A stretch of 53,391 bases of DNA from the NCBI GenBank assembly GCA_028691965.1, contig JAQUYE010000011.1:1-53391 (forward strand), written 5' to 3'. Both the position numbers and the translations under genes were made by a program. Of this stretch, positions 1 through 44,060 are shown in pieces (the stretch's first letter is position 1; each line of letters begins with the position of its first letter). Below the pieces are notes generated by a model that saw only the letters and a program-made list of their open reading frames with translations, was not told the DNA's origin and made no database searches. The stretch is from Paludibacter sp. GTDB taxonomy: Bacteria; Bacteroidota; Bacteroidia; Bacteroidales; Paludibacteraceae.

Positions 1-2910
1 ATCTGCAGCAAGTTTCGGAGCCGTCCAGTTCTCACTCCCTTTATCTTTTCGCGATACATAAATACACACATCGGGATGCCCTTCACGGGTACCACCAAAG
101 AATGCAGTCAACAGATCACCCTTTGTTGTTTCAACAATGGTTGCTGAATGGCATTGCGGAAAATCAGCTTTTGTATACACATATTCCTGAACAACAACCT
201 TTGAAGGTTGAGGAACCGGAAATTCAAAACGGTAGGTACCGGATCCGATTTTGCGTATCTTTCCATTAGGCAGGTGCAGCTCGGCAGTGCTGTTTGCAGG
301 GATCTCCACCTCCCACTCTACCTTCATCAGCGTTTTCTTCCAGTTACTTACCACCTTACCATAGGGAGTTTCGTAACCTGCATCCACAAATTCCAGGTCG
401 GGTACAGTAAAGTCGGGTTTCATAATCAGGTGACGGAAAGCCGGCTGTTCCGGATCTGTCTTTATCCCTGCCAGGTCTTCAAACACCCAGGGCAGGAAAT
501 CTCCCAGCAACATAACATGGTTACCCGAATTCATCCCCGGGTCGGCTGTATTTCCATTCCATAACTCCCATATGGTGGTTGCACCATTAGCCGCCATATA
601 CCCCCAGGATGGATAGCTCTGCGAACTTGCCAGTTTAAAGGCAACATCCCCGCGACCCATTTTTCTGAGTTCCTTCATAATCCATTGGGTTCCGATTACT
701 CCGGTCGGAATAGCTGCATTATATCCGTTGATAATTTTAGAGATTATATGTGCTTCAACCGTATCGGCATACTGTGAGGGAACGATCCCAAAAGCCAGGG
801 GTAACAGGTTCGAAGTAGTTGAATTGTTACCGTAATACAGGGAATCTGTATGGAAGAACTGCTTATTAAATCCTTCTTTTACCTTTTCTGCCATCGCTAT
901 CCATTCTTTCTCCTCAGCTGACAGTCCCTGTAACCGGGCAAACTTAGCCATTAATCCCGACAGGTGGTAATAATAGGCAGTCGACAACAACGCACCGTCG
1001 GTTTTACGCAGGGGATCGCGACTATGAATCAACTCAGGACTTTCGGGGGGTACGCACCAATCACCGTACTGGTCTTTCGTCACCACATAATCAGCTGTCA
1101 TATAGGTGCGTGCTATATGCTTCATCCAGGTTTCAATGGCTCTGTAATGTTCGCGAACCGGACGGGTATCACCAAATTGCTGATACATCATATTAACCGT
1201 CATCGGGAAGGCTGCCGGCCAGGTTACATTATCACTGTAATAATTCCAAAAAGCAGGAGCCACATCGGGAATAGCTCCGTCGTAGCGTTGCGCCTCGCTG
1301 ATATCTTCGGCCCACTTGGCATACATGGCTTTATTGTCGAACAAAAAGCTCTCACCCAGACTTCCCATGGTTCGGTCGCCCAGCCAGGGCTGACGCTCGT
1401 TGCGTTGCGGGCAGTCGACCGGCATTCCCTTGTAATTACCACGGATACCCCAGAAGGCATTGCGGATAACTGTGTTTAGTACCCGGTTGGAAGTGTTTAT
1501 CGAACCGGTATGCGCCATTTCATCTTCCACCACTTCACCCAGGAAATTATCAACTGTAGGTTGGTACCTGTATCCCTGAACTTCAACATAGCGAAAACCG
1601 TGGTAAACAAATACCGGAGCCCAGCTCTCGCCCGATGGATCGCCTTTCAGGATATATTCGTCGGTAACCCGTGCATCCCGCAGGTTTCTGGTAAATAATT
1701 CTCCGTTATCCTGTAAGGTTTCTGCAAACCGAAGCCGGATGGTATCACCGGCCTGTCCTTTTACCTGAATACGCAACCACCCTACCATATTCTGACCCAT
1801 ATCCAGGATATAGCGTTCGGAAGCAGAAGATGTTGCATCCAGTCTTTTTATGCTCAGGGGTTTAATCGTTTCAGTTATCTTCATACCCGGCATCAGCTGC
1901 GCTTTCATCCGACCGATGGGAATACTTACCCGCTCGGCTGCCATCCACTTACTGTCGTCGTAACCGGGCTTAGTCCAGTTACCTAACTCCCTGCGTGCAT
2001 CATAAATCTCGCCATCGTATTCGTTGTTCGAGCGAATAGGGCCATCTGCATTCAGCTTCCAGCTGGCATTGCTGACTATCTCTTCTTTACTTCCATCGGT
2101 ATACTCAACTGTTAGGTTCAGTCGTAGCTTAGGATATCCAAAGGTGTTGATTTTGTAGGGCTTGTAGGCTTGTCGCATCGTATAATAGCGGCCGTTCCCC
2201 AGCGCAACACCAATAGCATTTTGTCCCTCCTGCACCTGAGAAGTAACATCATAACTGTTGTACAACACTGATTTGCGGTAATCGGTAGGCGCAGGTGCTA
2301 GCACCTGATCCCCAACACGCTGCCCGTTAATAAACAGTTCGTACAAGCCCAGGCCGGAGATATACACGCGGGCACTCTTCACCTTTTTGGAAGTTGAAAA
2401 CTCCTTACGCAGGTAACGGGCCGAGAGTCGGCTCCACTGCGTTTCACTATCGTGAGGCATTGCCCTGTCGAGCCCTATCCACTGCGCTTTCCAGTCCGAA
2501 TCGGCCAACAATCCCATACTCCAGAAGGCCGGCTTCGAAAACTCACTTACTCCTTTGTTGGTCCATACCTTTACTTTCCAGTATGCCGGCTGTTTCGACT
2601 GCAGCGCTTTCCCCTGATAGGAAATCCACAGTTGTTCACCTGATTTTAGCTTTCCTGAATCCCACAGGTCGTAGTCGCCTTTCTCCAGCGATTCCTGCGA
2701 CGAAGACACCACAATCTGATAGGCTTTCTGAACTACATCCTGAAGACCCTCCGCCTCCGTCTTCCAGCTAAAACGGGGCAACCTGACATCAATACCTTCG
2801 GGATTAACAAGCCCTTCGGTGGTAAGGTCGGACACCCGGATCGACTGTGCTACAGCCAGGGAGGGAAATAGAAAAACGATAAGCAGTGAGATACGAATAA
2901 GGGTTTTCAT
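1..2910 (-). CDS. GH78 alpha-L-rhamnosidase fused to a C-terminal sialidase-like (BNR) domain, partial
   Basis: Reading frame stays open from ATG (2908-2910) to the window edge, so the C-terminus is missing (at least 970 residues). Residues 1-21 form a type I signal peptide. The start of the mature protein (LVNPEGIDVRLPRFSW) is the usual entry into GH78. The general-acid region DCPQRNERQPWLGD is at about 499-512 and the C-terminal TTIWELWNG, with the general-base Glu, at about 778-786, so the rhamnosidase module looks intact. From about residue 910 a second module starts: FPQCHSATIVE, then FFGGTREGHPDVCIY and a BNR-like SRKDKGSENW. This matches the start of a sialidase-type beta-propeller (BNR_2/GH33-like). 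It is the last gene of the operon visible here. Expected role: removing rhamnose and possibly a following keto-sugar acid from pectin fragments in the periplasm. The second activity is inferred. Confidence 0.88.
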   Translation of the reverse strand, partial: MKTLIRISLLIVFLFPSLAVAQSIRVSDLTTEGLVNPEGIDVRLPRFSWKTEAEGLQDVVQKAYQIVVSSSQESLEKGDYDLWDSGKLKSGEQLWISYQGKALQSKQPAYWKVKVWTNKGVSEFSKPAFWSMGLLADSDWKAQWIGLDRAMPHDSETQWSRLSARYLRKEFSTSKKVKSARVYISGLGLYELFINGQRVGDQVLAPAPTDYRKSVLYNSYDVTSQVQEGQNAIGVALGNGRYYTMRQAYKPYKINTFGYPKLRLNLTVEYTDGSKEEIVSNASWKLNADGPIRSNNEYDGEIYDARRELGNWTKPGYDDSKWMAAERVSIPIGRMKAQLMPGMKITETIKPLSIKRLDATSSASERYILDMGQNMVGWLRIQVKGQAGDTIRLRFAETLQDNGELFTRNLRDARVTDEYILKGDPSGESWAPVFVYHGFRYVEVQGYRYQPTVDNFLGEVVEDEMAHTGSINTSNRVLNTVIRNAFWGIRGNYKGMPVDCPQRNERQPWLGDRTMGSLGESFLFDNKAMYAKWAEDISEAQRYDGAIPDVAPAFWNYYSDNVTWPAAFPMTVNMMYQQFGDTRPVREHYRAIETWMKHIARTYMTADYVVTKDQYGDWCVPPESPELIHSRDPLRKTDGALLSTAYYYHLSGLMAKFARLQGLSAEEKEWIAMAEKVKEGFNKQFFHTDSLYYGNNSTTSNLLPLAFGIVPSQYADTVEAHIISKIINGYNAAIPTGVIGTQWIMKELRKMGRGDVAFKLASSQSYPSWGYMAANGATTIWELWNGNTADPGMNSGNHVMLLGDFLPWVFEDLAGIKTDPEQPAFRHLIMKPDFTVPDLEFVDAGYETPYGKVVSNWKKTLMKVEWEVEIPANSTAELHLPNGKIRKIGSGTYRFEFPVPQPSKVVVQEYVYTKADFPQCHSATIVETTKGDLLTAFFGGTREGHPDVCIYVSRKDKGSENWTAPKLAAD

Positions 2911-2938
2911 ACAGGAGTTGTATTAAAAATAAATCTGA

Positions 2939-4375
2939 TTAATTAGAACCGGCAACAATCATTGTATCGGTTGCCTTAAGATAGTCTTTTCCTTTTTCAA
3001 CAGCGATTAATACGCGATCGTGACCTAACATATAGGGAACATCGGCCTGAAAAGCATGCACCTTGTTGCCGGCAAATTCGCCGATGTATTCAAGTGCACC
3101 AGTTGCAGGCACAAACCACCAGCATTCCTTGTCAGCTCCGCTGATCTTCGAAAGATCGAGCTGCATCGGGCGACCGGAATAATTGTATGCCAGCAGATAA
3201 TCCTTTCCACAGGTAGCCACTACACGGTCGTAACGCTCCCCATTAACACCGGCTACGATCGACTGATCAGGAACACGTTCGAAGAAGGGGAATTTAAGCA
3301 TCAGCTGTTTCAGGTGCTGCATCTGATTAAATCCGGGATCTTCGAGGCAATCGTACCAGTACTTACCGGGGAAGAAAGAGCCTCCCACACCGGGCTTGTA
3401 GAACTGCATAATGGAATTATGACCGTACGTATGACCGAACGAACCGGCAAAAACCGACCAGTAAGCGTACCGACGTACATCATTGTCGGTCCAGCGTGCT
3501 TCATGTTCTTCGTGCAAACCATGTGGAATATCTTCGTAAATAGGTTCAGCATCAATAACAGGTTTAAGAGGAGTCATCGCCTGACTGCGCTCCACAAACC
3601 GCCAGTTATCTTCTTCTGTATTTTCTTCAATGGGATAATCACCATCGCCTTTACGCTGACCATAACGACGGTGACCGCTCTGGAACATGTTAAAGTCCAT
3701 CCACTCCTCACCATTAAACCAGGTTGCCGAAGTAGTTCTTCCCCGTGGGTGGAAGGTCATCAAATGATCAGGGTCGATCTTACGAATACTATGTGCCAGG
3801 GCTTCCCATACATCTGTTTTCATATCACCACGGATATCGCCACCTATCACCCAAATGATGTTCGGTGAGTTTTTATAGCGTTCGGCCAGGAACTTTCCAT
3901 AGCTGCGCGCCTGATCCGCATTCATTAATCCGGCGTTTACCGGACTGCCCCATACGCATACCATGGCGATATAAATACCATTCCGCTCAGCGGTCTTAAT
4001 AATATAATCCATATGATCCCAGTAGCCATACACTCCTTTTTGATTGATTTTGCTGAAATCAAAGCCATTCGGCATCGACGACTGACCGTAGGCATTATAA
4101 GCCGGGATACCGTCGATGGTTTGTACCTGTACTACATTGTAACCCCGTCGACTGCACTGACCGAGGTAGTAGGAAGCTTCACTCCGATCGAGGCGCTCGG
4201 GCAACAACCAACCGGTCTCACCCAACCAAAAGAACGGTTCGCCGTTGGCAAATTTAAGGTAACGACCTTCCTCACTCACCATCAGACGACCTTTTTTGAA
4301 AAGATCAGCGTTGCCCTGCGCTCCTGCACCTGTCAGCAGAACGAGCATTAAAAAAAGACTAACAATACGATTCAT
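2939..4375 (-). CDS. GH140-type apiosidase (DUF4038 domain plus collagen-binding-like C-terminus)
   Basis: A 478-residue secreted protein with signal peptide (cleavage near GAGAQ, residue 20). The body is the apiosidase-like DUF4038 TIM barrel, followed from about residue 385 by a small beta domain of the PF12904 type. Two carboxylates stand where GH140 needs them: Asp180 in IGGDIRGD and Glu277 in VIDAEPIYED. Their 97-residue spacing equals that of the catalytic pair recalled for B. thetaiotaomicron BT1012, the RG-II apiosidase. GH140 cuts the apiose-galacturonic acid bond that fixes side chains A and B to the RG-II backbone. It lies 27 nt downstream of the GH95-GH105 gene and 28 nt upstream of the GH78 fusion in the same operon. 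Other DUF4038 activities cannot be excluded, but the context supports RG-II. Confidence 0.87.
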   Translation of the reverse strand: MNRIVSLFLMLVLLTGAGAQGNADLFKKGRLMVSEEGRYLKFANGEPFFWLGETGWLLPERLDRSEASYYLGQCSRRGYNVVQVQTIDGIPAYNAYGQSSMPNGFDFSKINQKGVYGYWDHMDYIIKTAERNGIYIAMVCVWGSPVNAGLMNADQARSYGKFLAERYKNSPNIIWVIGGDIRGDMKTDVWEALAHSIRKIDPDHLMTFHPRGRTTSATWFNGEEWMDFNMFQSGHRRYGQRKGDGDYPIEENTEEDNWRFVERSQAMTPLKPVIDAEPIYEDIPHGLHEEHEARWTDNDVRRYAYWSVFAGSFGHTYGHNSIMQFYKPGVGGSFFPGKYWYDCLEDPGFNQMQHLKQLMLKFPFFERVPDQSIVAGVNGERYDRVVATCGKDYLLAYNYSGRPMQLDLSKISGADKECWWFVPATGALEYIGEFAGNKVHAFQADVPYMLGHDRVLIAVEKGKDYLKATDTMIVAGSN

Positions 4376-4402
4376 AAGAAGTTATTTTATGTAGGATTAT
4401 TT

Positions 4403-7400
4403 TTATTCGTGCATCAGTTTTTCATATTCCATCATCGCCAGGATAAACGAACCTGTTGATTTCGGGTCGTTGAGAATGATTGGTTCGCTGATGTAATAAG
4501 CAAAGCTACCATCGCGGCGTGTACCACCACCTCCCAGTCCGGCTACCGAACAACACTTGGTAATATCATACCAACCCTTGTCGTTCTTAACAATGAATTC
4601 GGCAAGTACTCCATCGTAGGCTTTTTTCACCTGCGGAATAAAGCTGTGATCGATATAGCCCTGTCGAACCGACTTGCTCAGGAAATACAGGAACATCGAG
4701 CTGGCCGACGATTCAAGGTAATTTCCCTCATGTTCGGGCTGATCGGGCACCTGGTACCACACACCCTTTTGGGGATGCTGGTACTTAATCAAAGCGCTTG
4801 CCAGTGTTTTAACACGTGCAATCAATTCGTTGCGTTGCGGATGATTGGCAGGCAGAAAATCAAGCACATCGACCATAGCCATCGCGTACCAACCGATACT
4901 GCGACTCCAGAAGGAGGGCGACAGGCCGGTCTTCTTATCGGCCCAGAACTGCTCGCGACTTTCATCCCATCCGTGGTAGTTGAGTCCTGTAGCCGGATCA
5001 AAGGTATGCTGATGAATCAGTTGAAGTTGTAACATCGCCTCTTCCATCGCTTTCGGGTCGTTGAAATCAACACTATACTGAGCCAGGAAGGGAGCTGCCA
5101 TGTACAACCCATCGAGCCACATCTGATGCGTATACTTGAGCTTATGCCAGAACCCACCCTGTGAGGTACGGGGTTGCTGGTCGAGTTGCTTCATCAGCGT
5201 ATCAATAGCTGTCTTGTAACGCTTATCCTTTTCCTGTTTATAGAGTTCAAAGAGAATTTTACCCGGTTTTACATTGTCCAGGTTATAAGTGAGAAATTGC
5301 ATACGGATCTTACCCTGCGCATTAATCGTTGAGTCGGCATACAATTTGGCATAGTCGTAATAACGTTTATCACCCGTGTGTACTGCCAGATCCTGCACTG
5401 CTTTTGCAACCAGACCGTGGGTATATCCCCACCGCGGACTGCGGGCATTTTCTATTTGCCAGGCTTCGGGGAATCGTTTCATTTCCGACTCCGCCATCCT
5501 CACCGACCAGCGTGCGGGAAGTTCATCACCTGCCACCAGTACATACTCTCCACCTTTGCTGGTATTCAGATCGTACAGGCGGGTGGGAGTTAATTCCAGT
5601 GGTTTAAAGAAGGATGGGTCGTTGATACGGGCTGCAGGTGTTTCAGGAAACTGAAACAACGGATTCGGATTAGGACCTGCTGCTTCGCGTAACCCCTCAC
5701 CCTTCAGGGGAGAAGCCATTCTCAGGCGCAGCACACCACCATTCCGTGAATGTACTTTCAACTTCGTTACCTTACCTTCCTTCCAGGCCATATCGATAAC
5801 AAAACCGCCACGGGCCACCAGACCGGTAACTTCACCGGTATCCCATACCGAGGGAAGGGCCGGCAGCAGGTATACAAAACCATCATGACTCTGCATCAGC
5901 ATTTCGGCAATACCGGCAGTACATCCGAAGTTACCATCAATCTGGAAGGGCGGATGCGCATCAAATAAGTTAGGATAGGTACCACCTCGTTTAGGTTCGT
6001 CGCGCACCAGCGAGAGCTGATCGGTAATTAGTTTATAGGCATGGTCGCCGTCGAGCAAACGCGCCCACAGACACACTTTCCAACCCATACTCCATCCCGT
6101 CGACGGATCACCGCGGGCGATGAGTGAATTTTGGGCTGCCTGAAACAGCTCCGGTGTACGATAGGGAGAGATCTGATTACCGGGGAACAAGCCATACAAA
6201 TGGGAAACATGACGATGCTTGTCATCCTGCAGGTCCCAGTCGTGCATCCATTCCTGCAACTGACCCCACTTGCCGGTCTGCATAGGCGCCATTTCAGCAA
6301 GCTTTTTGCGTAGGCGGGGAACCAGCTCATCGTTAATAGAAAGGATACGTGCACTTTCAATCACCGAATGCCACAGGTCGAAAATCAGCTGATTATCCAT
6401 GGTTACCCCAGCAGCAATGGTTGCTTTCTTTCCGCTACCGGCATGTGAATTCTCCGGCGAGTTGGATGGGTTCACTACCAGCCAGTTGTTTTCGGGCTCG
6501 TACATCATCACTTCATCAAAGAAGACAGCCGACTCGCGCATAATGGGATACACCGAACGCAGGAAGGCAGTATCGCCCGTATAAAGGTAATGTTCCTGTA
6601 AATGGCGACACAGCCAGGCTCCGCCCGAGGGCCACATTCCGGAGGCTGCACGGTCGATTCCACCGGTTACACGCCATACATCCGTATTGTGATGCATCAC
6701 CCAGCCATCAACACCATACATAATTCTGGCTGCCTCCCGTCCGCTTTCACTCACCTCGCGGGTAAGTCGCAACAAAGGCTCATACAGCTCGCTCAGGTTG
6801 GTAACTTCAGCCGGCCAGTAGTTCATTTCCACATTTATATTGGCTGTATACTTACTGTCCCAGGGAGGAAACACCTTGTCGTTCCATATTCCCTGCAGAT
6901 TGGCTGCTTGTCCGCCGGGTTGCGACGAGCAAATCAACAGATAACGACCAAACTGATAGTAAGTTGCTACCAGCTGATTATCGTTGGAAGTTGCAAACTG
7001 CTCCACACGCTTATCGGTAGTCAGCTGCTTGTACTTGTTATCGCCCAGGTAAAGCGTCGAGCGATCGTAATATTGCTTATAAAAGTCGATGTGAGCACGA
7101 CGGGATGTACTAAAGTCCTTGTGTACAGCTTTAGAGAGTATATCCTTTGCTTTGGCAACCTCATCGATGTCGATATTCTTATAATCTCGGAAGTTAGTGG
7201 CGATGGAAACCATCAGCACAACTTCATCGGCCTTATCCACTACCAGCACGCCATCGCGGGTAGTCAGTTTTCCACCTTTAATTTTTGCAGTCACCCGACC
7301 GTGAAACTCCACCTTGCCGCGCAGTCGCTCGTGAGTCGGGGTAACCCCACTCAGCGTAATCTCATTCTCTTCGGTAGTAATCTTAACATCCTGATGCGGC

Positions 7401-8014
7401 GATGTAAGCAGTGCGTGAAAACTAATCTGTTTCTTCTTAGAGGCAGTAAGACGCATCATCACCACCTGATCGGGGAAAGAAGTAAATACTTCCCGCTGAA
7501 ATTCGACGCCTTTCACTTTATAGCTTACGCGGGCAATAGCCGAATCGAGACTCAGCTCGCGGTAGTAGTCGGTATAGGCCGAATGTCCCGGAAACGACAG
7601 GCGCAGGTCGCCAAAACTCTGATAAGGCATCCCTGAATTGGTTTGCGACATTACCTTTTCGGTGGCTAATTGCTCTGCTTCTATATACTGACCGGCAAAT
7701 ACCATATCCCTGATTTTCGGGAGGTATTCCAGTGCAGCAGGATTCGGATTGTTATTGGGCTGTCCGGCCCATATCGTTTCTTCATTCAGCTGAATATGCT
7801 CCTGTGCCGGATTCCCGTACACCATGGCACCCAGGCGCCCGTTTCCTATTGGAAGGGCTTCTACCCAGAGGGATGCCGGACGATCGTACCACAACAGGTG
7901 TTCGTTGTTACCCGGCTGGTGGGCCGGCTTCCCGGCAGCTACTGCCGAAAGGCCCGTTACCATTAACAGAAGGAGTATTCCTGCAATTCTCACTATTCTT
8001 TTCTGTACTCGCAT
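4403..8014 (-). CDS. Bifunctional GH95 (alpha-L-fucosidase/galactosidase) - GH105 (unsaturated glycuronyl hydrolase)
   Basis: A 1203-residue secreted protein with signal peptide (to about SAVAA, 27). Residues 38-770 are a full GH95: N-terminal LWYDRPASLWVEALPIGNGR, the paired Asn residues in ANINVEMNYW (392, 394), LQEWMHDW (586-593) and QIDGNFGCTAGIAEML with Asp693. Residues about 835-1203 are a full GH105 alpha/alpha barrel: RWGYTHGLVAKA, MWLDGLYMAAPF with the likely catalytic Asp968, LNYHGWDES, WSRSIGWYAMAMVDVL and the terminal CSVAGLGG...YYISEPII. Either module alone is the size of a normal single enzyme. In RG-II degradation GH95 (BT1010 in B. thetaiotaomicron) removes terminal L-galactose from side chain A. 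GH105 enzymes hydrate terminal unsaturated uronic acids left by lyases. The linker near 767-785 has an odd low-complexity composition (see findings). Exact substrates are inferred. Confidence 0.9.
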   Translation of the reverse strand: MRVQKRIVRIAGILLLLMVTGLSAVAAGKPAHQPGNNEHLLWYDRPASLWVEALPIGNGRLGAMVYGNPAQEHIQLNEETIWAGQPNNNPNPAALEYLPKIRDMVFAGQYIEAEQLATEKVMSQTNSGMPYQSFGDLRLSFPGHSAYTDYYRELSLDSAIARVSYKVKGVEFQREVFTSFPDQVVMMRLTASKKKQISFHALLTSPHQDVKITTEENEITLSGVTPTHERLRGKVEFHGRVTAKIKGGKLTTRDGVLVVDKADEVVLMVSIATNFRDYKNIDIDEVAKAKDILSKAVHKDFSTSRRAHIDFYKQYYDRSTLYLGDNKYKQLTTDKRVEQFATSNDNQLVATYYQFGRYLLICSSQPGGQAANLQGIWNDKVFPPWDSKYTANINVEMNYWPAEVTNLSELYEPLLRLTREVSESGREAARIMYGVDGWVMHHNTDVWRVTGGIDRAASGMWPSGGAWLCRHLQEHYLYTGDTAFLRSVYPIMRESAVFFDEVMMYEPENNWLVVNPSNSPENSHAGSGKKATIAAGVTMDNQLIFDLWHSVIESARILSINDELVPRLRKKLAEMAPMQTGKWGQLQEWMHDWDLQDDKHRHVSHLYGLFPGNQISPYRTPELFQAAQNSLIARGDPSTGWSMGWKVCLWARLLDGDHAYKLITDQLSLVRDEPKRGGTYPNLFDAHPPFQIDGNFGCTAGIAEMLMQSHDGFVYLLPALPSVWDTGEVTGLVARGGFVIDMAWKEGKVTKLKVHSRNGGVLRLRMASPLKGEGLREAAGPNPNPLFQFPETPAARINDPSFFKPLELTPTRLYDLNTSKGGEYVLVAGDELPARWSVRMAESEMKRFPEAWQIENARSPRWGYTHGLVAKAVQDLAVHTGDKRYYDYAKLYADSTINAQGKIRMQFLTYNLDNVKPGKILFELYKQEKDKRYKTAIDTLMKQLDQQPRTSQGGFWHKLKYTHQMWLDGLYMAAPFLAQYSVDFNDPKAMEEAMLQLQLIHQHTFDPATGLNYHGWDESREQFWADKKTGLSPSFWSRSIGWYAMAMVDVLDFLPANHPQRNELIARVKTLASALIKYQHPQKGVWYQVPDQPEHEGNYLESSASSMFLYFLSKSVRQGYIDHSFIPQVKKAYDGVLAEFIVKNDKGWYDITKCCSVAGLGGGGTRRDGSFAYYISEPIILNDPKSTGSFILAMMEYEKLMHE

Positions 8015-8017
8015 AGT

Positions 8018-10018: not shown

Positions 10019-10042
10019 ATACAACAGGTATTTATTAACTTT

Positions 10043-11392
10043 TTATTTCTGTTCGTGTAATTCCAGCTTAGCACCATTTATATATACCTCGTTTAGCTGT
10101 AGGCGCTCGAAATTGTAGAATTCGGGTTTCTGTCGACCTTGCAGATAGATATTGGTAAGCGACACATCCTGTATCGGCGACTCTTCCAGTCCGCGTATAA
10201 AAACAGGTACATTCACATCGGTACCTGTCACATTACTGATGTGGATATTGCGGAAGACAGGGGTACGCTCTGATACCGGTTCTTCCGGCATTCGGCTGTA
10301 CCGTAAATCCATGATAATAGCTTCTTTCTGAATGTTACGCATCACCACATTGCTTACGCTGATGTTCTCCACCACTCCACCGCGACCACGTGTCGATTTC
10401 AGACGAATACCACGATCGGTACCATCAAACACACAGTTGGTGATGGTGATGTTGCGCACACTTCCACTCATCTCACTTCCAATAACCACGCCACCGTGAC
10501 CGGCAAGCATGGTGCAGTTGGTAATGGTAATATTCTCACAGGGTGTATTATAGCGTCTTCCCTGAGCATCACGACCGCTCTTGATGGTGATGCAGTCGTC
10601 GCCCACCGTAATATGGCTATCCGAAATCCGCACATTCTTACACGACTCGGGATTGATACCATCCGTGTTCGGCGAATCTACATTATCGATGGTAATACCG
10701 CTGATGGTGATGTTTTCGCAGAAGTTCGGATTGATCGTCCAGAAAGGGGAGTTGGTAAACTTCACTCCCTGAATGGTAATACGTTTACTATTCAGGAACT
10801 GCACGAATGGCGGACGGAAGAAGCGACGTTTCAGGGTTCCTGTATAATCTTCGTTGGTTTCGGCATACAGGGCTTTCACATCGTTTTGCTCGTCCCACAT
10901 AGCCTGGTATTTATTCACATTCTGCACTCCGTTCTTTTGCAGGTCAACCAATACCCTGAAGAATTCGTCCCACCATGCCTTCCCCTGCCCGTCGAGGGTT
11001 CCTTCTCCTTTTATGGCGATATTCTCGGCATTTTCAGCATAAATCAGGGGCGAAAAGCTCTTCATCATTACACCTTCGTAGCGCATGTCCACAAAAGGCA
11101 GGTAATCATCAAAATTATCGGAGAACAACAAGGTAGCTCCGGCCGATAATTCAAGGGTGATATTACTTTTCATGCGTATCGGACCAGTAAGATAGGTGCC
11201 GGCAGGAAAGTACAGGGTACCGCCTCCTTTGGAATGTAAGCGGTCGATCGTGTAGTTAATCACCCTGGTGTTTAACTTCTTACCATCGGCCTTAGCACCG
11301 GCCTTTCGCATATCTACTACCGATGCCTGCACCAGCAGGGTGGTTAATAACAAAGTGATTGTAAGCACATTCTTGAAAAAGGATCTGTTCAT
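10043..11392 (-). CDS. GH28 polygalacturonase/exo-galacturonidase
   Basis: Start placed at ATG 11390-11392, which opens a normal signal peptide (MNRSFFKNVLTITLLLTTLL); the longer frame starts only at TTG 11419. Product 449 residues. The right-handed beta-helix shows all GH28 signatures in order: NTDGI (about 243-247), GDDCITIKSG (about 264-273), GHGGVVIGSE (about 298-307) and the RGIRLKS version of the RIK motif (about 327). These supply the three catalytic aspartates, the His and the substrate-binding Arg/Lys. The enzyme hydrolyses alpha-1,4 galacturonic acid bonds of a pectin backbone. Its place between the GH78 and CE19-like genes matches the BT1019-BT1018-BT1017 order as I recall it, so it likely trims the RG-II homogalacturonan backbone. 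Confidence 0.92.
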   Translation of the reverse strand: MNRSFFKNVLTITLLLTTLLVQASVVDMRKAGAKADGKKLNTRVINYTIDRLHSKGGGTLYFPAGTYLTGPIRMKSNITLELSAGATLLFSDNFDDYLPFVDMRYEGVMMKSFSPLIYAENAENIAIKGEGTLDGQGKAWWDEFFRVLVDLQKNGVQNVNKYQAMWDEQNDVKALYAETNEDYTGTLKRRFFRPPFVQFLNSKRITIQGVKFTNSPFWTINPNFCENITISGITIDNVDSPNTDGINPESCKNVRISDSHITVGDDCITIKSGRDAQGRRYNTPCENITITNCTMLAGHGGVVIGSEMSGSVRNITITNCVFDGTDRGIRLKSTRGRGGVVENISVSNVVMRNIQKEAIIMDLRYSRMPEEPVSERTPVFRNIHISNVTGTDVNVPVFIRGLEESPIQDVSLTNIYLQGRQKPEFYNFERLQLNEVYINGAKLELHEQK

Positions 11393-11424
11393 ATCGGATT
11401 GTTTTATTCTGAGTTGCAAGTATA

Positions 11425-14193
11425 CTAATTAATTGAATCGGGCAAGGTAGTTGTGAACGAATGTGTACCACTTCCTACCAATTGATCTGATAAACCGGGA
11501 AGGCGTACCGTCGCACGGGTATTAACGGGTAGGATAACCGTCAGGTCGACCTGCTTTCCGCTTCGTTTCCAGTGAACGCTTACTTCCCCGTAAATGGTTC
11601 CGGTGGATGCCTTTACATGACTGAGTTCGCCCACGATCCGGGGTTCGATAATGATGTGTTTATAGCCCTGCTCCGGACGAATACCTGCCAGCGAGGCAAA
11701 GAACCATTCGTCGATCTGTCCCATCATAAAGTGATTCCACGACGAACCCATGCGCGGATCCCATTGCTCGGTAAGTGTTGTAGCTCCAAACTGAAGCTGA
11801 AAGCCATAACCCGGTGCTTCGTAGTGATGGTGCATGTCGTACATCAGCTCATTGAGTCCGTTGGTAGCCAGCACCTGAAACAAATACCGGTTCCCTACAT
11901 CCCCCGTTGTAAGGCGGTTGCCCTTTTCCTGAATAGCTTGTACAAGGCGGTCGAGTACAGGCTTACGGTACTGTGGTTCAACAATATCGAGGTAAACGGC
12001 CAGTGCCAGGGCGGTCTGACTGCCGGTAGCATAGCTGGCTGTAGCAGCATCGAACCAGCGTTCGTTAAATCGCTCACGAACGGCTGTTGCCAGTTCGCCA
12101 AACAGCTTCGCATCGAGCTTATTCCCCACTCGTACAGCCAGGGCGGCCATCAGTTTTAAGTCGTAGTAATAGTAGGCAGTAGCCACATAAGGCACAGGAG
12201 TATTCCGTGAATATCCGGCCCTGAAGTCACCATAGTCGTACCAATCGCCCAGCCCGAAACTCAACTCATGATCTTCCGCCCGTGAAATCAGGTATTCCAT
12301 GTAGCGGCGCATGTGTGGATAATAGTCGAACAGCAGGGTGGAATCACCGTAAAACTCTTCGTACATATGCGGAAAGATGATAAAGGTACTACCCCACTCC
12401 GGTGAATCACCGAACTCGTCGAAACCACCGTTGGCAGTGCCAAAGATATTGTAAAGGGGTGCAGTGGTGGGCACCATCCCGTTGGGTTGCTGTGCATCGG
12501 CCATATCGCGCATTATCTTTGGCCCGAAGCGGGTAAGGTCGTAATTATACAGCAAACCGGGACCGTTGAGATGAACCTGTTCGAGCCATCCGAGCTTTTC
12601 ACGGTGCGGACAATCCGTAAACACTGCCTGCATATTACTTTTCACAGCCATCTCTATCAGGCGGTGTGTCTTGTTAAACAAATCGGAGGAGGTCTCGAAA
12701 GTCGACAACTTAGTAACGGAGTTATGGACAAAGCAGGACTGCAACCCGGTGAGTACCGGTAGTTTACGGGGATTAGGATCGCCTTTCTGAACGGCTCCTT
12801 CTACCTGTATGTACCGAAATCCGTAATAGCTGAACCGCGGTCGCCAGCTCTCTTCTCCCTCACCCTTTAACACATAGCGGTAGTAATGTGGCCGGCCGGT
12901 CTGCCGTTGATCGCAAGCCCCTTCAGGGGTTAGTGCTTCCGAAACGAATATAATAATTTCATCTCCTTTCCTGCCGCGCACCTTAATCTCCGGAAATCCC
13001 GAAAGGTTCTGTCCCATGTCAAATACCATGGCCGACGCATCCAGTCTGCGTTTAGTTTTTTTCGAAGCTGAGTCGAGTTCCTGCTGTATAAACAGCTTGC
13101 GGGAAACGGGTTGGTAGCGACTCATAATCTTTACCGGGTCCGACTGCTGGGGAGTGAGTTCACCGGCAGGGGCATCCTGTAACACAACGGGTTTCCAGTT
13201 CGCAGCCGTAAAACCGGGTTTATCCCATCCTTTCTGCTCCAGGCGGGCATCGTAATCTTCACCACCGTAGGTATCGTTAAAGACAATTGGACTAAGATCA
13301 TACTTCCAACTTTCGTCGGTACGTATCAGTTCCACACTACCGTCGTCGTACCTTAGCTCGGTGACCATCCACAGTGTAGGAGCTCCGAAGGAAACCTTCA
13401 GCTTGGTGTACCTGCCACCCTGAACATTGTAAAAACCATTTCCAAGCAGTACTCCGAACACATTCTCACCCTTCTTCAGTAAAGCACTGATATCGTAGCT
13501 ATTGTAGTAAACCGTCTTTACATAGTCACTCCACAGGGGCGCAAATTCGCTGTCGCCAACCTTCACGCCATTCACCGTGAGCTCATAATGACCAAGACCG
13601 CTAATATGAGTGATGGCTTCCACCACCTTTTTGGTGGTTACAAACGATTTGCGTAGCTGAATGCTTTTACGCGACAGACTATCAATTCCGGCCCATACAG
13701 CGCGGTATTCGGGGGTGCGCATCTCACGACTGTAAAAACGTTTCCCTGCAGGTATACCTGCACTATCGCTGCGGATAGCTCCAATCCAGCTTTGCTCACC
13801 CAGTTGCTTCAGGTCAGGTGCAGTACGAAACCGGGCAGTCCTGCTCCAGGCCGACACCTTTCCGGCGGCATCCCACACCCTTACTCTCCAGCTATATGCG
13901 GTAGCAGGGCTGAGTGGAAGTCCGGAGTAAGTTACATGCTGACTGGCATCCGAGTTCACTTTACCACTTTGCCATACTGCTGTTTGGGTGTAGGTAGTGA
14001 TCACTTCAATCTCGTAGGCCGATTGAAGCACATTCGGTTCGGCAGCACTCAGCTGCCATCCGAAACGAGGCTGAAAGGTAGTAAGTGCAAGCGCCTCCTC
14101 CTGGTATTCACAGCTTACCTTACTCACTTTTATCGCGTTAGCAGGGATTACCAGCAACAACAGAACTATCAGCAACAAACTACTCTTTCTCAT
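11425..14193 (-). CDS. GH78 alpha-L-rhamnosidase
   Basis: A 922-residue secreted protein; signal peptide MRKSSLLLIVLLLLVIPANA (1-20). Domain order is that of family 78: N-terminal fibronectin-like and carbohydrate-binding beta domains (about 21-500), an alpha/alpha barrel (about 505-845) and a C-terminal beta-sandwich. The general acid is expected to be Glu532 in FTDCPHREKLGW and the general base Glu809 in TTLTEQWDP; both are present. It differs from the first GH78 of the operon, which has the DCPQRNER version, so the two are not recent copies and probably act on different rhamnose linkages. It starts 4 nt after the GH143-GH142 stop and ends 32 nt before the GH28 ATG. Role inferred: releasing rhamnose from RG-II side-chain fragments in the periplasm. 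Confidence 0.92.
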   Translation of the reverse strand: MRKSSLLLIVLLLLVIPANAIKVSKVSCEYQEEALALTTFQPRFGWQLSAAEPNVLQSAYEIEVITTYTQTAVWQSGKVNSDASQHVTYSGLPLSPATAYSWRVRVWDAAGKVSAWSRTARFRTAPDLKQLGEQSWIGAIRSDSAGIPAGKRFYSREMRTPEYRAVWAGIDSLSRKSIQLRKSFVTTKKVVEAITHISGLGHYELTVNGVKVGDSEFAPLWSDYVKTVYYNSYDISALLKKGENVFGVLLGNGFYNVQGGRYTKLKVSFGAPTLWMVTELRYDDGSVELIRTDESWKYDLSPIVFNDTYGGEDYDARLEQKGWDKPGFTAANWKPVVLQDAPAGELTPQQSDPVKIMSRYQPVSRKLFIQQELDSASKKTKRRLDASAMVFDMGQNLSGFPEIKVRGRKGDEIIIFVSEALTPEGACDQRQTGRPHYYRYVLKGEGEESWRPRFSYYGFRYIQVEGAVQKGDPNPRKLPVLTGLQSCFVHNSVTKLSTFETSSDLFNKTHRLIEMAVKSNMQAVFTDCPHREKLGWLEQVHLNGPGLLYNYDLTRFGPKIMRDMADAQQPNGMVPTTAPLYNIFGTANGGFDEFGDSPEWGSTFIIFPHMYEEFYGDSTLLFDYYPHMRRYMEYLISRAEDHELSFGLGDWYDYGDFRAGYSRNTPVPYVATAYYYYDLKLMAALAVRVGNKLDAKLFGELATAVRERFNERWFDAATASYATGSQTALALAVYLDIVEPQYRKPVLDRLVQAIQEKGNRLTTGDVGNRYLFQVLATNGLNELMYDMHHHYEAPGYGFQLQFGATTLTEQWDPRMGSSWNHFMMGQIDEWFFASLAGIRPEQGYKHIIIEPRIVGELSHVKASTGTIYGEVSVHWKRSGKQVDLTVILPVNTRATVRLPGLSDQLVGSGTHSFTTTLPDSIN

Positions 14194-14197
14194 TCCT

Positions 14198-17100
14198 TTA
14201 CGGATTAATATTACATTTCAACAAGCCCAGAGTCTCTCTGCTGCCCATCTCTTTTCCATCTACGAGTATCCGCAGTCCTTTTCCAAGGTGATAACGATCA
14301 CCGTGCCTGTCCCATATAATGGTAAGGTTTTTTCCCTGGTACAACACATTGTCGAGACAGAACCAGTCCCATTTATCTTCGGGTAAAAGCGGATTAATTT
14401 CAAGCACATCACCTGCCGAAGGACGCAAGCCCACCAGGCCGGTAATAATCAGGTCGTTGAAGGTAGAATGGTTGTAATAACGGGCACGCTCCTGATCACC
14501 TTTCAACCAGTAACCGGTCACTTCGTCGAGGTATTCGCCGATGTAGGGGCGACCGCGATGCGACTGCGACTCAACCAGTTTCTCGAGATGCGTGAAGTAC
14601 AATTGTTTGTCGACTACCTGCTGCGGATAGCGATGCATGAAGTTAGCCATGGCAGTAAGGGTTTGCGAAGTGGCAAAAGGCCATATGGCTCCGTCCCACT
14701 CACATTTGCCCACACCACGGGTGCGGAACTCCGGATGTCTCCGTTCGGCAGTAGTATGTCCGTAAGGTGCCATAAAGCCCTCGTCGTCGCCCAGCTGCAC
14801 CCAGGCGCTGTCGAACTTACTTTCGGCAGGCAGGTTGAAATACCAGGGTATATAACCGATGGCTTCACGGGCATTGGCCAATGAATCGGTTCGACGGGTT
14901 TCAAAGAACTGGTTCTTTGAGTTCCATAGCAGTGTTTCCACCAGGTTCTTGAGAGTGTCGGCTTTTGCAGTGTAGAGCTGTTGCTTCTCAGTATCACCCG
15001 CCATACCAAAGATGGTGGCAAGTGCACGGGCATTACCATACATATAACTGTTGATGGTGGGGCGTGCGTACTTTTTACGCCTACCGCCACTGATGGATTC
15101 TTCCATTCCGTCCTGCACATCACCCTGCCAGTATAACTTGTTAGGCAGACGATTACGGCCTTCCCAGTTTTGGTATTCCTGTTCCATATCACTCAGCATG
15201 TCCATCAGGAATGCTGTATCGCGACTCACATAAAAACGATTCAGCTGTGCATCTATATTCCACGAACTGAAGTTCATCATCCTTGCCATGGGCTTACCTT
15301 CATTACCGCGGTACCAGGTACGGATAATCTGATTCAGGTAGGTGGAGTCGCGCATCCAGCGACTTTCGTATATATGGTGTCCAATGGCACAGGCAATCAG
15401 GTTGAACTTATCAGCATAGGAGCGGTTGACCAGAAATTCGGTCATACCGTAGCCTACCGGAGTGTTCTTGATGTGCTTGCGCAGCGACCACCAGCGGAAA
15501 TAATAGATCTCTTCAAAATTTTGTTGCGGACATTCAAACAGGGGAATGTTTTGCTCCATCCACTCAGCCGATTGTGCATTCGGTATCGCCTGTACGATGT
15601 TCTCGTCTTCCATGGTATTGAAATAATCCACATAATGACGGAAGTTATCGAACTTCAATACTGCTGCCGAGGCATTCGTATCGAGCGAACGGGTTTTCAG
15701 ACTACCAATACGGAACATGGCAAGTGCTTCCTGCTCACCGGCACCCGGCACATCATAGTCCATATCGGCAGGAGTATCGATGGTGGGATAGTCGCGCGGA
15801 GCACCTGTATAAAAGGCCACCCGTTCGATGGAAGCTACAGGAGCATAGAACATGCGCACACCGGCTTGTTTTCCGTCGATAAATACGGTGATACTACGGT
15901 TGGCGACCGACAAGCGGGCAGTTACTTCGTAGCTTCGGTTGGGTTCGTACTGCATCAGGCGACCAAAACGGGCTCCTCCCTTGGCACGAAACTCACCTTC
16001 GGGAGTAAATTCGAGGCGCGAACAAGCAATACCCTTGTCGTCGAGGAACTCAATCCGCAAGAGGCCTTTGTCGTTCTGACCGGCACGGACTTCAAACGTC
16101 ACTTCCAGCTCTTTCGAGGCAGGTAGCTTATGTTCAACCTTTGCATAATCAAAGGGATCCTTATCCCTGAGAGTCAACCAGGTGCGACCGGCTTCCTGCT
16201 CCAGAGATACCGGAGCCCAGAGGGGCGAATAGATATTCCAGGAAGTAAGATCACTCAGGTGCTGACCGGCTTTAAAACTTGCATCAGCATGAGCCGTAGC
16301 CCTGGCCTGAACAGGAACAGGAATACGGGATACCCACATATCTTCTTTGTTAACACTATAACTCACCCACATATCCTTGTCGGCCGGAACTCCATTACCT
16401 TCCTGAATACCACGCACATATTGCGGGCCGTTCGACTTGTAATTGCCCCCGTAGCGCATACGGGTAATCTCTCCGTGAACCAGGTTGAGTGTTGTATAAT
16501 TCCAGCCATCGGCCGATGTGGATATAGCTAAAGGCCAACGGTATTCCGAAGGATTATAAACGGTAGCATAACTACCATCACTAAGGCGTTGTCCCCATAT
16601 CTTGGCATTGCTGTTTACAAAACCTTTTGCACGCAACACAGGCTCTGCCCAGGTGTTTCCTCCGTCTTTACTAACCGAGGTAAGGGCGTGTTTCCACAGA
16701 CTGGCAACAGTTCCGTCGGGCAGATGATAGTAATTAAAGGCTTTGTAGCCTTTATGAAGCGGAATAATCGGGTCGTTGCGATCGGCTTCTTCCACCCATT
16801 GCATACGGTAAAGCGGGTTGTCAAGGATCTCCTGACAGGCTTTACGAAATTCCTTATCACGGCTTTTTGTAAAATAGGGGTAATCGGTATTTTTGGCCGA
16901 GAAGTCGTGATTATAGTAGATAAAATAAACCGGACCAAACGATCCGTCCTTGTAAATCTCACGAATAACCCGTCCGATACCGTTTCCATCGTTGGGATCG
17001 TCTTTCTTATCCAGGGCCACACCATAATTGGCCATGGTAAGCAGGCGGCCCGATTTGGAAACATAAAAACCAACCCGCTGGTGCATGATAGCAGTCAGGT

Positions 17101-17521
17101 TAGTTGCAACATCCGTGCGACCGGGTTTTGTAAATCCATCAGGCACCTTATAGATAGGGAACAGCACCTGTGGCTCCGACCAGTTATAACCATCCGCAGA
17201 GGTCTGCAGGAAAGTCTGTGAAGGCGGTATATGCTCTCCCACCTCACCACTCAGGTATTGCAGGTAAAACATTCCGTTGTGATAGGCCAGCATCGGCTGA
17301 TGATGGTATGTCCATCCGTTACAGTTGGCCGCTTCGGGATATTCACGGTTAGCGCGCATGGTCTGGATGTTGTGCACTCCGACTACAGGCGACAACTGTC
17401 CGTCGTGATAAGCAGGATTGGCCAGGGTTGTTCCGGTGTAGTGGATACGCTGATCACCGGCCTGCACCATGGCAAGTGTAAGGATCAGTGAAAGAAGTAG
17501 ATGTGTTGTTTTCTTCATCAT
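14198..17521 (-). CDS. GH143-GH142 bimodular enzyme (DHA hydrolase + beta-L-arabinofuranosidase), BT1020-like
   Basis: A 1107-residue secreted protein with signal peptide (to about MVQAG, 22). Residues about 25-405 form a sialidase-like propeller with LSPVVGVHNIQTMRANREYP, HIPPSQTFLQTSADGYNWSE and WKHALTSVSKDGGNTWAEP. Residues about 410-600 look like a concanavalin-type beta-sandwich. Residues about 625-1090 form an alpha/alpha barrel of the MGH1-like type. This order and the opening sequence agree with B. thetaiotaomicron BT1020, whose N-terminal GH143 removes 3-deoxy-lyxo-heptulosaric acid (DHA) and whose C-terminal GH142 removes beta-L-arabinofuranose. Together the two modules dismantle RG-II side chain D. 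This is the strongest single marker that the operon targets RG-II. Identity is by recollection of the family; a search against GH142/GH143 would settle it. Confidence 0.85.
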   Translation of the reverse strand: MMKKTTHLLLSLILTLAMVQAGDQRIHYTGTTLANPAYHDGQLSPVVGVHNIQTMRANREYPEAANCNGWTYHHQPMLAYHNGMFYLQYLSGEVGEHIPPSQTFLQTSADGYNWSEPQVLFPIYKVPDGFTKPGRTDVATNLTAIMHQRVGFYVSKSGRLLTMANYGVALDKKDDPNDGNGIGRVIREIYKDGSFGPVYFIYYNHDFSAKNTDYPYFTKSRDKEFRKACQEILDNPLYRMQWVEEADRNDPIIPLHKGYKAFNYYHLPDGTVASLWKHALTSVSKDGGNTWAEPVLRAKGFVNSNAKIWGQRLSDGSYATVYNPSEYRWPLAISTSADGWNYTTLNLVHGEITRMRYGGNYKSNGPQYVRGIQEGNGVPADKDMWVSYSVNKEDMWVSRIPVPVQARATAHADASFKAGQHLSDLTSWNIYSPLWAPVSLEQEAGRTWLTLRDKDPFDYAKVEHKLPASKELEVTFEVRAGQNDKGLLRIEFLDDKGIACSRLEFTPEGEFRAKGGARFGRLMQYEPNRSYEVTARLSVANRSITVFIDGKQAGVRMFYAPVASIERVAFYTGAPRDYPTIDTPADMDYDVPGAGEQEALAMFRIGSLKTRSLDTNASAAVLKFDNFRHYVDYFNTMEDENIVQAIPNAQSAEWMEQNIPLFECPQQNFEEIYYFRWWSLRKHIKNTPVGYGMTEFLVNRSYADKFNLIACAIGHHIYESRWMRDSTYLNQIIRTWYRGNEGKPMARMMNFSSWNIDAQLNRFYVSRDTAFLMDMLSDMEQEYQNWEGRNRLPNKLYWQGDVQDGMEESISGGRRKKYARPTINSYMYGNARALATIFGMAGDTEKQQLYTAKADTLKNLVETLLWNSKNQFFETRRTDSLANAREAIGYIPWYFNLPAESKFDSAWVQLGDDEGFMAPYGHTTAERRHPEFRTRGVGKCEWDGAIWPFATSQTLTAMANFMHRYPQQVVDKQLYFTHLEKLVESQSHRGRPYIGEYLDEVTGYWLKGDQERARYYNHSTFNDLIITGLVGLRPSAGDVLEINPLLPEDKWDWFCLDNVLYQGKNLTIIWDRHGDRYHLGKGLRILVDGKEMGSRETLGLLKCNINP

Positions 17522-17527
17522 AGGTAA

Positions 17528-18448
17528 TTAATGCTTTTGTGCTGCTTTCAACAAATTCTTTACAAGGGATTCAGGGGCTTTAAATACCGTACCGTGCTTA
17601 TGCCCTTTCGGGAACACAGCCTCTTCGCCCATATAGCGGAAGGACTTGAAATCGGTAGTCTGAACGGCACCATAACTAAAGTCCCGGTATTCGTCGAAAT
17701 AAATATAGTTGTTTTCGCCACTTTGTGCAACTGTAGGACCCTCGCAATACGAAGCTGTAAAGGGCTCGGATACGGTATGATAGGGACCTTCGGCATCGGA
17801 AGCAAAAGCCACCTTCAGGTTGCGGTTCGGACGGGTATTATCTTTAAACACCATAACATAATCCTGTGGTGCCCGTTTCACAAGGGTTGCATCTATTGAA
17901 CTGAAGCCCGGATCAATTAACAATTTCGTTTCCGAGAAGGTCTCAAAGTCCTTCGTAGTCACGTAAAACAAGCGATGATTATTTTTGAGTTCTTCCTGTC
18001 CGAGGTCGAAGCGACCGGGAATAGTTGAAGCCCATATTACCATGTATTGTTGCTTTGCATCGTCGTAAAACAATTCAGGGGCCCATACATTCACGGTAGT
18101 GGGTTCGTGAGTCATTACCTCTACCAGTTTGGGTTCCGACCAATTGATAAGGTCGGTCGACTGAGCATAACCAAATCCCATATCCCCTTTCCAGCTGGAA
18201 GTCCACACCAGGTGATAAACACCTTCGGGAGAGCGAACGATGGAAGGATCGCGCATCACCTGTTGGTTGCCGACTGAAGGTTTCAACCACACACCGGGAA
18301 TACTGTCCCAGTGCAATCCATCCTCACTGTAAATAAACTTCAGCCCGGCATCAGCAGGCTCTCTGAACGACGTGGAAACATACATTTCCTTTTCTCCTCC
18401 GCAGGAAAGGAAAAACAGAACAGCAATTAATGCAAAATAGTACTTCAT
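17528..18448 (-). CDS. GH43-like five-bladed propeller glycosidase, lipoprotein
   Basis: A 306-residue protein with a lipoprotein signal (lipobox FLSC, Cys16), so it is membrane-anchored, unlike the other seven operon products. The fold looks like the GH43/GH32/GH117 five-bladed propeller, with the three acidic residues expected for GH43: Asp67 in MRDPS, Asp186 in SSIDATL and Glu236 in YCEGPTV, plus NVWAPELFYD. GH43 enzymes are mostly arabinofuranosidases or xylosidases. Which pentose bond this one cuts cannot be told from sequence. It is the first gene of the RG-II operon, 6 nt before the GH143-GH142 gene, and divergent from recO. The 106-nt gap upstream has no clear TAnnTTTG box on this strand, which would suit a promoter that depends on an activator. 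Confidence 0.78.
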   Translation of the reverse strand: MKYYFALIAVLFFLSCGGEKEMYVSTSFREPADAGLKFIYSEDGLHWDSIPGVWLKPSVGNQQVMRDPSIVRSPEGVYHLVWTSSWKGDMGFGYAQSTDLINWSEPKLVEVMTHEPTTVNVWAPELFYDDAKQQYMVIWASTIPGRFDLGQEELKNNHRLFYVTTKDFETFSETKLLIDPGFSSIDATLVKRAPQDYVMVFKDNTRPNRNLKVAFASDAEGPYHTVSEPFTASYCEGPTVAQSGENNYIYFDEYRDFSYGAVQTTDFKSFRYMGEEAVFPKGHKHGTVFKAPESLVKNLLKAAQKH

Positions 18449-42409: not shown

Positions 42410-42433
42410 ATGTGTACGTATTTAATGTGTTTA

Positions 42434-44044: not shown

Positions 44045-44060
44045 TGTAATTTTATTTTAT

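Follow-up and report, generated by a model that had tools for sequence, protein, structure and literature searches.

The window analysed here is a stretch of 53,391 nucleotides, contig C63 of the 167-contig, 3.04-Mb assembly of a Paludibacter sp. (contig JAQUYE010000011.1 of GCA_028691965.1), and its gene content supports an operon, of a kind common in Bacteroidales, for the degradation of rhamnogalacturonan II (RG-II), which is the most complex of plant pectins. Positions 1-18448 hold eight co-directional minus-strand genes, head to tail, with intergenic gaps of 3-28 bp. Their coordinates and order hold as given by a first-pass annotation (a model's reading of the letters), which listed seven of them and omitted the GH43-like gene at 17528-18448. 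Loci, genomes and contigs are numbered below with L, G and C, respectively. From 18448 down, the genes are:

17528..18448, minus strand: GH43-like gene, lipoprotein-type, first of the operon; candidate BT1021 type by order and family
14198..17521, minus strand: GH143+GH142 fusion, BT1020 type (5mqr and Pfam propeller)
11425..14193, minus strand: GH78 alpha-L-rhamnosidase, second copy, in the place of BT1019 (Pfam and 6i60)
10043..11419, minus strand: GH28, BT1018 type, backbone alpha-galacturonidase (Pfam and 3jur)
8018..10024, minus strand: esterase+DUF3826, BT1017-type pectin methylesterase (6goc and Pfam)
4403..8014, minus strand: GH95+GH105 fusion, 1203 aa (Pfam and PDB matches)
2939..4375, minus strand: GH140 apiosidase, BT1012 type (Pfam and 3kzs/5msy)
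1..2910, minus strand: GH78+sialidase-like (BNR) fusion, truncated at the contig end (Pfam), apparently continuing at C133:26291-27340

GH140, GH143/GH142, GH28, a BT1017-type esterase and GH95 stand together here, and the same gene set and order recur in RG-II loci of Phocaeicola, Bacteroides and others, which bears out the first reading of the operon. The GH143+GH142 protein aligns over its whole length, both modules included, with PDB 5mqr (1906 bits, residues 18-1104), which we take to be BT1020, and Pfam finds Beta-prop_BT_1020 (394 bits; Pfam itself calls this propeller BT_1020-like) together with MGH1-like and GH65C domains. This orthology upholds the proposal that the gene is a case of the BT1020 pairing on chain D, which we take to be established, with hydrolase activity on 3-deoxy-D-lyxo-2-heptulosarate (Dha) and beta-L-arabinofuranosidase activity. 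The GH140, GH28, second GH78 and esterase genes, described earlier as separate, were confirmed by Pfam and PDB matches: Apiosidase at 389 bits and 3kzs/5msy at 781 bits for GH140 (5msy being, we assume, BT1012), GH28 at 171 bits and 3jur at 273 bits for GH28, five rhamnosidase domains and 6i60 at 421 bits for the second GH78, and 6goc at 859 bits over residues 25-659 with DUF3826 at 217 bits for the esterase. TTG opens the frame of both the GH28 and the esterase genes, with the first ATG at codon 10 and codon 3, respectively. The GH43-like gene may be of BT1021 type, judged by its place and by weak matches (98.6 bits to the NCBIfam alpha-arabinofuranosidase model, below the cut-off of 500, and 27.5 bits to Pfam BT_3657-like_N); such a gene occupies the equivalent spot beside GH143 in L022, L025, L027, L028 and L047. 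Scanned against NCBIfam, none of the proteins encoded in the window reached the cut-off of an equivalog model. In published accounts, BT1010, BT1012, BT1017, BT1018 and BT1021 have roles in RG-II breakdown, BT1018 as a backbone alpha-galacturonidase and BT1021 as an alpha-L-arabinofuranosidase on chain F, and the layout of BT1017 matches the esterase+DUF3826 type.

Three two-module genes had been reported, and GH143+GH142 and GH95+GH105 are whole, but the GH78+sialidase-like frame leaves the window at base 1 with only 40 of 277 BNR_2 positions (Pfam, 33.8 bits). When the BNR module of L008 (Paludibacter sp. 47-17), a relative with an entire 1255-aa GH78+BNR fusion in a single frame, was used to search the assembly, a match of 75% identity turned up at the very end of C133. 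That frame covers all 277 BNR_2 positions (272 bits), and the end of C133 overlaps the start of C63 by 207 bp, 202 of them identical. We read the two pieces as one gene split by the assembly, with the five mismatches probably strain differences. A chance match as the origin of the BNR reading was ruled out, given 33.8 bits in the window but 272 bits on C133. Additionally, C133 encodes SusC- and SusD-type genes, a pectinesterase, a DUF3826 protein and two PelZ-like lyases.

In the GH95+GH105 protein a single frame holds Pfam GH95 (581 bits) to about residue 826 and GH88/105 (391 bits) from about residue 836; the closest solved matches are PDB 4ufc for the GH95 module (790 bits) and 4wu0 (332 bits) and YteR (272 bits) for GH105. 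The join, ...GEYVLVAG-DELPARWSVRMAESE... at about window 5551-5506, is direct, with the GH95 end ...GEYVLVAG running into the GH105 ...WSVRMAESE. With this protein as query, the best 80 of 594 loci were kept, and the 33 that also contain GH140 served as the comparison set for fusion counts; the 80 favour near kin because they were retrieved with the window's own fusion. GH95 and GH105 share one frame in only one of the 33 (L008) and are separate in 20; the other 12 have GH95, and GH105 was not found within their fetched stretch. Outside this set, L015 likewise has both modules in a single frame, and among 120 genomes of the same family, 54 of them with a match, one frame over both modules was found only in the window's own genome. 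Trees were built for GH105 (31 rows) and for GH95 (80 rows, those under 600 aa dropped); in them the window groups with L008, and the L015 protein with loci of Dysgonomonas type. At least two changes are forced by the branches starred there; the fusion is rare and arose at least twice. We did not meet it in the portions available of a literature that lacks most subscription journals. The L015 protein (L015:2766-6479) has a longer linker containing SPLKGEREKSPLGDLGVAPFRGLG, which we take to resemble a translated repeat element common in Bacteroidota and which is perhaps how this independent fusion arose.

The other two fusions are usual in Bacteroidales RG-II operons, and an operon that carries them is of a known kind. 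GH78 and BNR share a frame in 28 of the 33 GH140 loci and occupy two frames in two (L039 and L045), while GH78 alone was seen in three (L017, L023 and L046). This count removes the earlier suggestion that packing of end-chain removal is special to this bacterium. GH143 and GH142 form one frame in 11 loci and two frames in L039 and L046; GH142 is alone in two, and neither was found within the stretch in 18. Fusions of other composition were also seen: a GH28 and a BT1017-type esterase, both backbone enzymes, form a single frame at L047:6866-9838 (991 aa) and L045:6926-9943 (1006 aa). At L013:15123-19796 and L041:15184-19806, GH78+BNR is joined to a xylose-isomerase-like triosephosphate isomerase (TIM) barrel, PF01261, which is a surprising companion for a glycosidase that is exported, and frames of similar length occur in L014, L035 and L036.

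The first-pass annotation had drawn a general rule from such fusions, namely that each removes one terminal disaccharide of a side chain, one module taking the outer sugar and the other the acidic sugar below, so that GH95+GH105 would take L-galactose (L-Gal) and then glucuronic acid (GlcA) from chain A. If true, the rule would let function be read off gene fusions. GH143+GH142 fits it, GH78+BNR may fit it, and the double origin of GH95+GH105 speaks in its favour, but we consider it very improbable. In print, the GH2 module of BT0996 is the beta-D-glucuronidase that acts on chain A once BT1010 has removed L-Gal, and the GH137 fused to it acts on chain B (PMC9843283). BT1010 is listed as a GH95 on chain A in PMC10154630, and GH105 removes 4,5-unsaturated galacturonate in pectin use according to PMC8002723. 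The window's own genome has a BT0996 equivalog on C144 (NF049877, 2342 bits, cut-off 1800) beside a BT0997-type alpha-galacturonidase (NF049878, 1416 bits, cut-off 1300), as well as GH141 and GH127 on C134 and GH106 on C33 and C32. The GH105 module, a member of the GH88/105 fold family, keeps the site of unsaturated uronyl hydrolases, including the catalytic Asp143 of YteR (QMWLDGLYM aligned; Asn in the 2gh4 substrate-complex mutant), and 12 of the 33 RG-II loci lack GH105 next to GH95 within the fetched stretch. The rule fails for chain A because GlcA is removed by the GH2 of BT0996, which has an equivalog here. The conserved Asp and the lyase-like genes on C133 also entered into the rejection of GH105 as a chain A glucuronidase, which prevents its wrong annotation as a GlcA remover. 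As a generality the rule is broken by BT0996, which serves chains A and B, by GH28+esterase in L045 and L047, and by GH78+BNR+PF01261 in L013 and L041.

The explanation we prefer, and hold to be probable, is an RG-II operon orthologous to Bacteroides genes in which GH105 acts on unsaturated ends, GlcA is left to a BT0996-type enzyme and no one-chain-per-fusion rule applies. In this Bacteroidales bacterium the eight genes would be transcribed as a single unit, and together they would be orthologous to the BT1010, BT1012, BT1017, BT1018, BT1020 and BT1021 types and presumably, by place, also to BT1011 (GH105), BT1013 (GH78+BNR) and BT1019 (the second GH78). Their products would be exo-enzymes, secreted by signal peptide, that strip the side chains and dismantle the backbone. 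GH143 would release Dha and GH142 the L-arabinofuranose on it, and on chain C the rhamnose and 3-deoxy-D-manno-octulosonic acid (Kdo) would probably fall to GH78+BNR, whose sialidase-fold site departs from the canonical GH33 one. GH95 would remove L-Gal from chain A, exposing GlcA to the GH2 of the BT0996-type protein on C144; this module groups in the tree with the GH95 of Paludibacter and Bacteroides RG-II loci, as a BT1010-type orthologue. The substrate of GH105 would be the Delta4,5-unsaturated uronic acid that pectate lyases, for instance the two on C133, leave at chain ends, which it would hydrolyse. In loci of this kind, neighbouring co-directional genes of the operon would become fused without regard to one chain per protein, and GH105 may have joined GH95 when a stop codon disappeared together with the N-terminal signal of GH105, which is lipoprotein-like in most cases; by a crude pattern, a lipobox-like start is present in 19 of 25 stand-alone GH105 and in 1 of 22 GH95.

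Several observations weigh against this explanation. The GH95 module has a threonine at the place of 4ufc Thr370, a residue that we take to be characteristic of GH95 L-galactosidases. It was rejected as a marker of that activity; it does not discriminate because 77 of 80 rows carry it, in RG-II loci or not. The nearest solved kin of the GH105 module are of YteR type, for unsaturated rhamnogalacturonan ends and not homogalacturonan ends, and GH105 could have changed its substrate. The double origin of GH95+GH105 could mean that the two modules work on a common substrate and not only that their genes are neighbours. The PelZ-like lyases score 126 and 138 bits, under the curated cut-off of 840, the link between C133 and the window depends on the 207-bp overlap with its five mismatches, and the genes after GH78+BNR differ in L008. 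A narrower form of the preferred explanation would direct GH105 to a uronic acid specific to RG-II, for example an unsaturated backbone end made by a lyase that cuts the homogalacturonan flanking RG-II, with the fusion tethering GH105 to RG-II. We give this form a real but minority chance: the GH105 of RG-II loci form a group of their own, with a Shimodaira-Hasegawa-like approximate likelihood ratio test (SH-aLRT) value of 97 (two outlying rows are placed unsurely), and lie beside GH95 and GH140 in 20 loci, but the YteR kinship and the 12 of 33 loci in which GH105 is not in the stretch tell against it.

The BNR module was aligned in 30 rows (the L045 row, cut by the locus end, was left out), and the L008 module, modelled with these rows, is a six-bladed sialidase propeller (predicted local distance difference test score, pLDDT, 88.5). 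Foldseek places GH33-type sialidases first, with 1eur the best match (E 2.2e-15, 17% identity). The earlier description of the module as sialidase-like stands for the fold, but not for the canonical site. In sequence alignment with the canonical sialidases L161, L162, L164 and L166, every one of the 30 rows retains the Tyr nucleophile and two Arg, but the Arg of the RIP motif, needed for a three-Arg carboxylate site, is replaced by His19, and the Glu partner of the Tyr by Gln220, again in every row. The C133 sequence agrees with the rows at all of these positions. We do not file the module as GH33 because of the two replacements. It may nonetheless work like GH33 on Kdo, and the chain C pairing of rhamnose and Kdo in GH78+BNR is plausible. 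An inactive or binding propeller, or an enzyme acting on a sugar other than Kdo, seems doubtful to us: the His and Gln replacements favour it, as does a stand-alone BNR gene beside an esterase, GH142 or GH143 in L190 and L193, not beside GH78, which weighs against a strict BNR-GH78 tie, but the Tyr and two Arg are invariant, the module persists in RG-II loci, as part of a fusion in 28 of 33, and Kdo, the second ulosonic acid of RG-II, needs a hydrolase. We infer the substrates of both the GH105 and the BNR modules in this organism, Kdo being that of the latter. The BNR module appears to be a sialidase-fold enzyme whose active site is altered and which most of the RG-II loci read have retained.

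On C133, positions 4052-10182 hold five co-directional genes for a DapA/NanA-family aldolase, an SSS symporter, an iron-type alcohol dehydrogenase (Fe-ADH), PdxA and a DUF1537 kinase. RG-II-type loci, defined by GH140, GH142 or the GH78 of the fusion, make up 38 of the best 80; the complete set is found in L042, L045 and L083, and L018 and L036 have two of its genes each. These five loci all belong to the 38, and the 42 other loci have no PdxA, DUF1537 or Fe-ADH of the set kind. In a sample of 295 genomes of the same order as the window, GH143 occurs in 15 genomes and DUF1537 in 14, with both in 10 against 0.7 expected (Fisher 2.4e-12; 3.4e-11 without the window's own genome). At gene level, 9 of the 15 genomes with GH143 have the set and none of the other 280 does, 276 of these 280 lacking a DUF1537 match altogether and 4 lacking the other set genes in the fetched stretch of 6-16 kb (p 1.2e-13; 8 of 14, p 2.4e-12, without the own genome). 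The set means all five genes in these counts, with G328 (four of five, Fe-ADH not being among those listed) and G401 (also four, its contig being 4.1 kb long) included and G296 (only remote PdxA and DUF1537) excluded; the Fisher values ignore kinship, and the nine set-bearing genomes fall in eight family codes. The genes can be interleaved with those for RG-II: G229 reads GH43-GH143-GH142-LacI-type regulator-aldolase-SSS-Fe-ADH-PdxA-DUF1537-GH28 and G328 reads GH143-GH142-aldolase-SSS-PdxA-DUF1537-GH28-esterase, while in G185 the set begins a run that extends to GH140-GH43-GH143-GH142-GH78.

We suggest, with confidence evenly balanced, that bacteria with GH143 carry this linked set to consume the Dha that it releases. 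Dha would be imported by the symporter and cleaved by the N-acetylneuraminate lyase (NAL)-type aldolase to pyruvate and a C4 aldehydo acid, which Fe-ADH would reduce to D-threonate; the DUF1537 kinase would phosphorylate D-threonate, and PdxA would oxidatively decarboxylate the product to dihydroxyacetone phosphate (DHAP). Each gene fits a step of this route. Worked out stereochemically, retro-aldol cleavage of D-lyxo Dha followed by reduction gives exactly D-threonate, on which DUF1537 kinases paired with PdxA2 act, and identical logic for Kdo yields D-arabinose, its known cleavage product. All 18 rows of set aldolases (the own gene counted twice) have the GTTGE motif, the Tyr and the Schiff-base Lys; next to the Lys stand E269, R270 and R274 (each Arg in 17 of 18), which are absent from a second aldolase type. 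An Arg near the Lys could hold the second carboxylate of Dha. A relative's set aldolase was modelled with a pLDDT of 92.8, and N-acetylneuraminate lyase is its best fold match; this fold, shared with dihydrodipicolinate synthase, does not tell substrates apart, and no single curated model scored the set aldolase above its cut-off. The second type, of the DapA family, lies downstream of the BT0996 equivalog and is followed by an apparent SSS symporter (L123:14639-16499; G000, C144); it also precedes GH28 or an esterase in the Dysgonomonas-type loci L013, L014, L015, L035 and L041, and GH140 in L036, and may serve Kdo, giving pyruvate and D-arabinose. Among the matches listed, in the same literature lacking most subscription journals, we found no description of bacterial Dha catabolism and none that combines heptulosaric with threonate or DUF1537. 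The set offers a concrete, testable answer to the fate of this RG-II sugar acid.

The case for Dha use has its own counter-evidence. DUF1537 is absent from five GH143 genomes of the order sample (G141, G144, G189, G254 and G285); G141, G189 and G254 carry a long BT1020-type frame, and G285 does so in one of its GH143 copies, which means that many degraders of the Bacteroides type must manage without the set. G296 has only remote PdxA and DUF1537 genes. In a phylum sample of 395 genomes, which partly overlaps the order sample, GH143 occurs in 21, DUF1537 in 17 and both in 9 (p 9.7e-9; 9.6e-8 without the own genome), but most of the GH143-linked DUF1537 genes are not of the five-gene set. The set itself occurs in 3 of 21 genomes with GH143 (G444, G446 and G000, the window's own genome) and in 2 of 374 without (G487 and G589), a weaker link than in the order sample (p 0.0012; 0.014 without the own genome). 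The C133 kinase has D-threonate kinase as its best family, with 90 bits against a cut-off of 450, and of the curated models for steps of the route only a PdxA model was passed (TIGR00557, 354 bits, over 290), the D-threonate-4-phosphate dehydrogenase model being under its threshold (370 bits, 583).

A set that serves apiose or free threonate instead of Dha seems to us rather unlikely, although DUF1537 kinases serve apionate too. Seven genomes of the phylum sample have DUF1537 on the GH143 contig at a distance of 8-51 kb, with a RuBisCO-like neighbour seen in four of the seven Flavobacteriia stretches. These pairs occur in L193, L196, L198 and L200, of Flavobacteriia type with GH143, and the only one scanned, that of L196, is OiaK-like (427 bits) and OiaX-like (497 bits; cut-offs 700), which suggests apionate (apiose) use linked to RG-II. 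DUF1537 alone was rejected as a marker of Dha use on account of this OiaX-like company, and therefore only the set with aldolase and PdxA was counted. That set includes PdxA and a NAL-type aldolase, its kinase matches D-threonate kinase best, if far under the cut-off, and free threonate requires neither aldolase nor reductase; we know of no apionate route that needs an aldolase or PdxA.

Other genes accompany these systems. Three minus-strand genes at C133:10196-13265 (L095:1197-4266) encode a zinc-type alcohol dehydrogenase (PRK10083 model 192 bits, cut-off 376), an amidohydrolase (119 bits, only 21 bits to the L-fuconolactonase model) and a protein that by eye resembles an aldo/keto reductase, and possibly oxidize L-galactose or L-fucose, both RG-II sugars. 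To the right of the operon in the window come recO and other housekeeping genes, amid which, 23 kb away, stands another SusC/SusD pair, accompanied by a third gene that has no Pfam match (41468-47222).

By family and best solved match, the operon has the enzyme set of Bacteroides thetaiotaomicron BT1010-BT1013 and BT1017-BT1021, a species outside the loci read, and differs in having all eight genes in one co-directional run and GH95 fused to GH105. The order GH95, GH105, GH140, GH78+BNR is common to the window, P. vulgatus and B. finegoldii; GH95 and GH105 are separate in 20 of 33 loci. D-threonate catabolism, which we take to consist of a DUF1537 kinase and PdxA2, shares the adjacent kinase and PdxA family with C133, whose set adds an aldolase, Fe-ADH and a symporter, is linked to GH143 and falls below both curated D-threonate cut-offs. 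GH33 sialidases share the six-bladed propeller, the Tyr and two Arg with the BNR module, which has His for the first Arg and Gln for the Glu. YteR, an unsaturated rhamnogalacturonyl hydrolase of GH105, is alike over the whole module and in its catalytic Asp site; the window's module differs in being fused to GH95. With BT1020 (GH143-GH142) no difference was seen over the whole length, and BT0996 (GH2-GH137), the published two-activity RG-II fusion with an equivalog in this genome, has modules that act on two chains.

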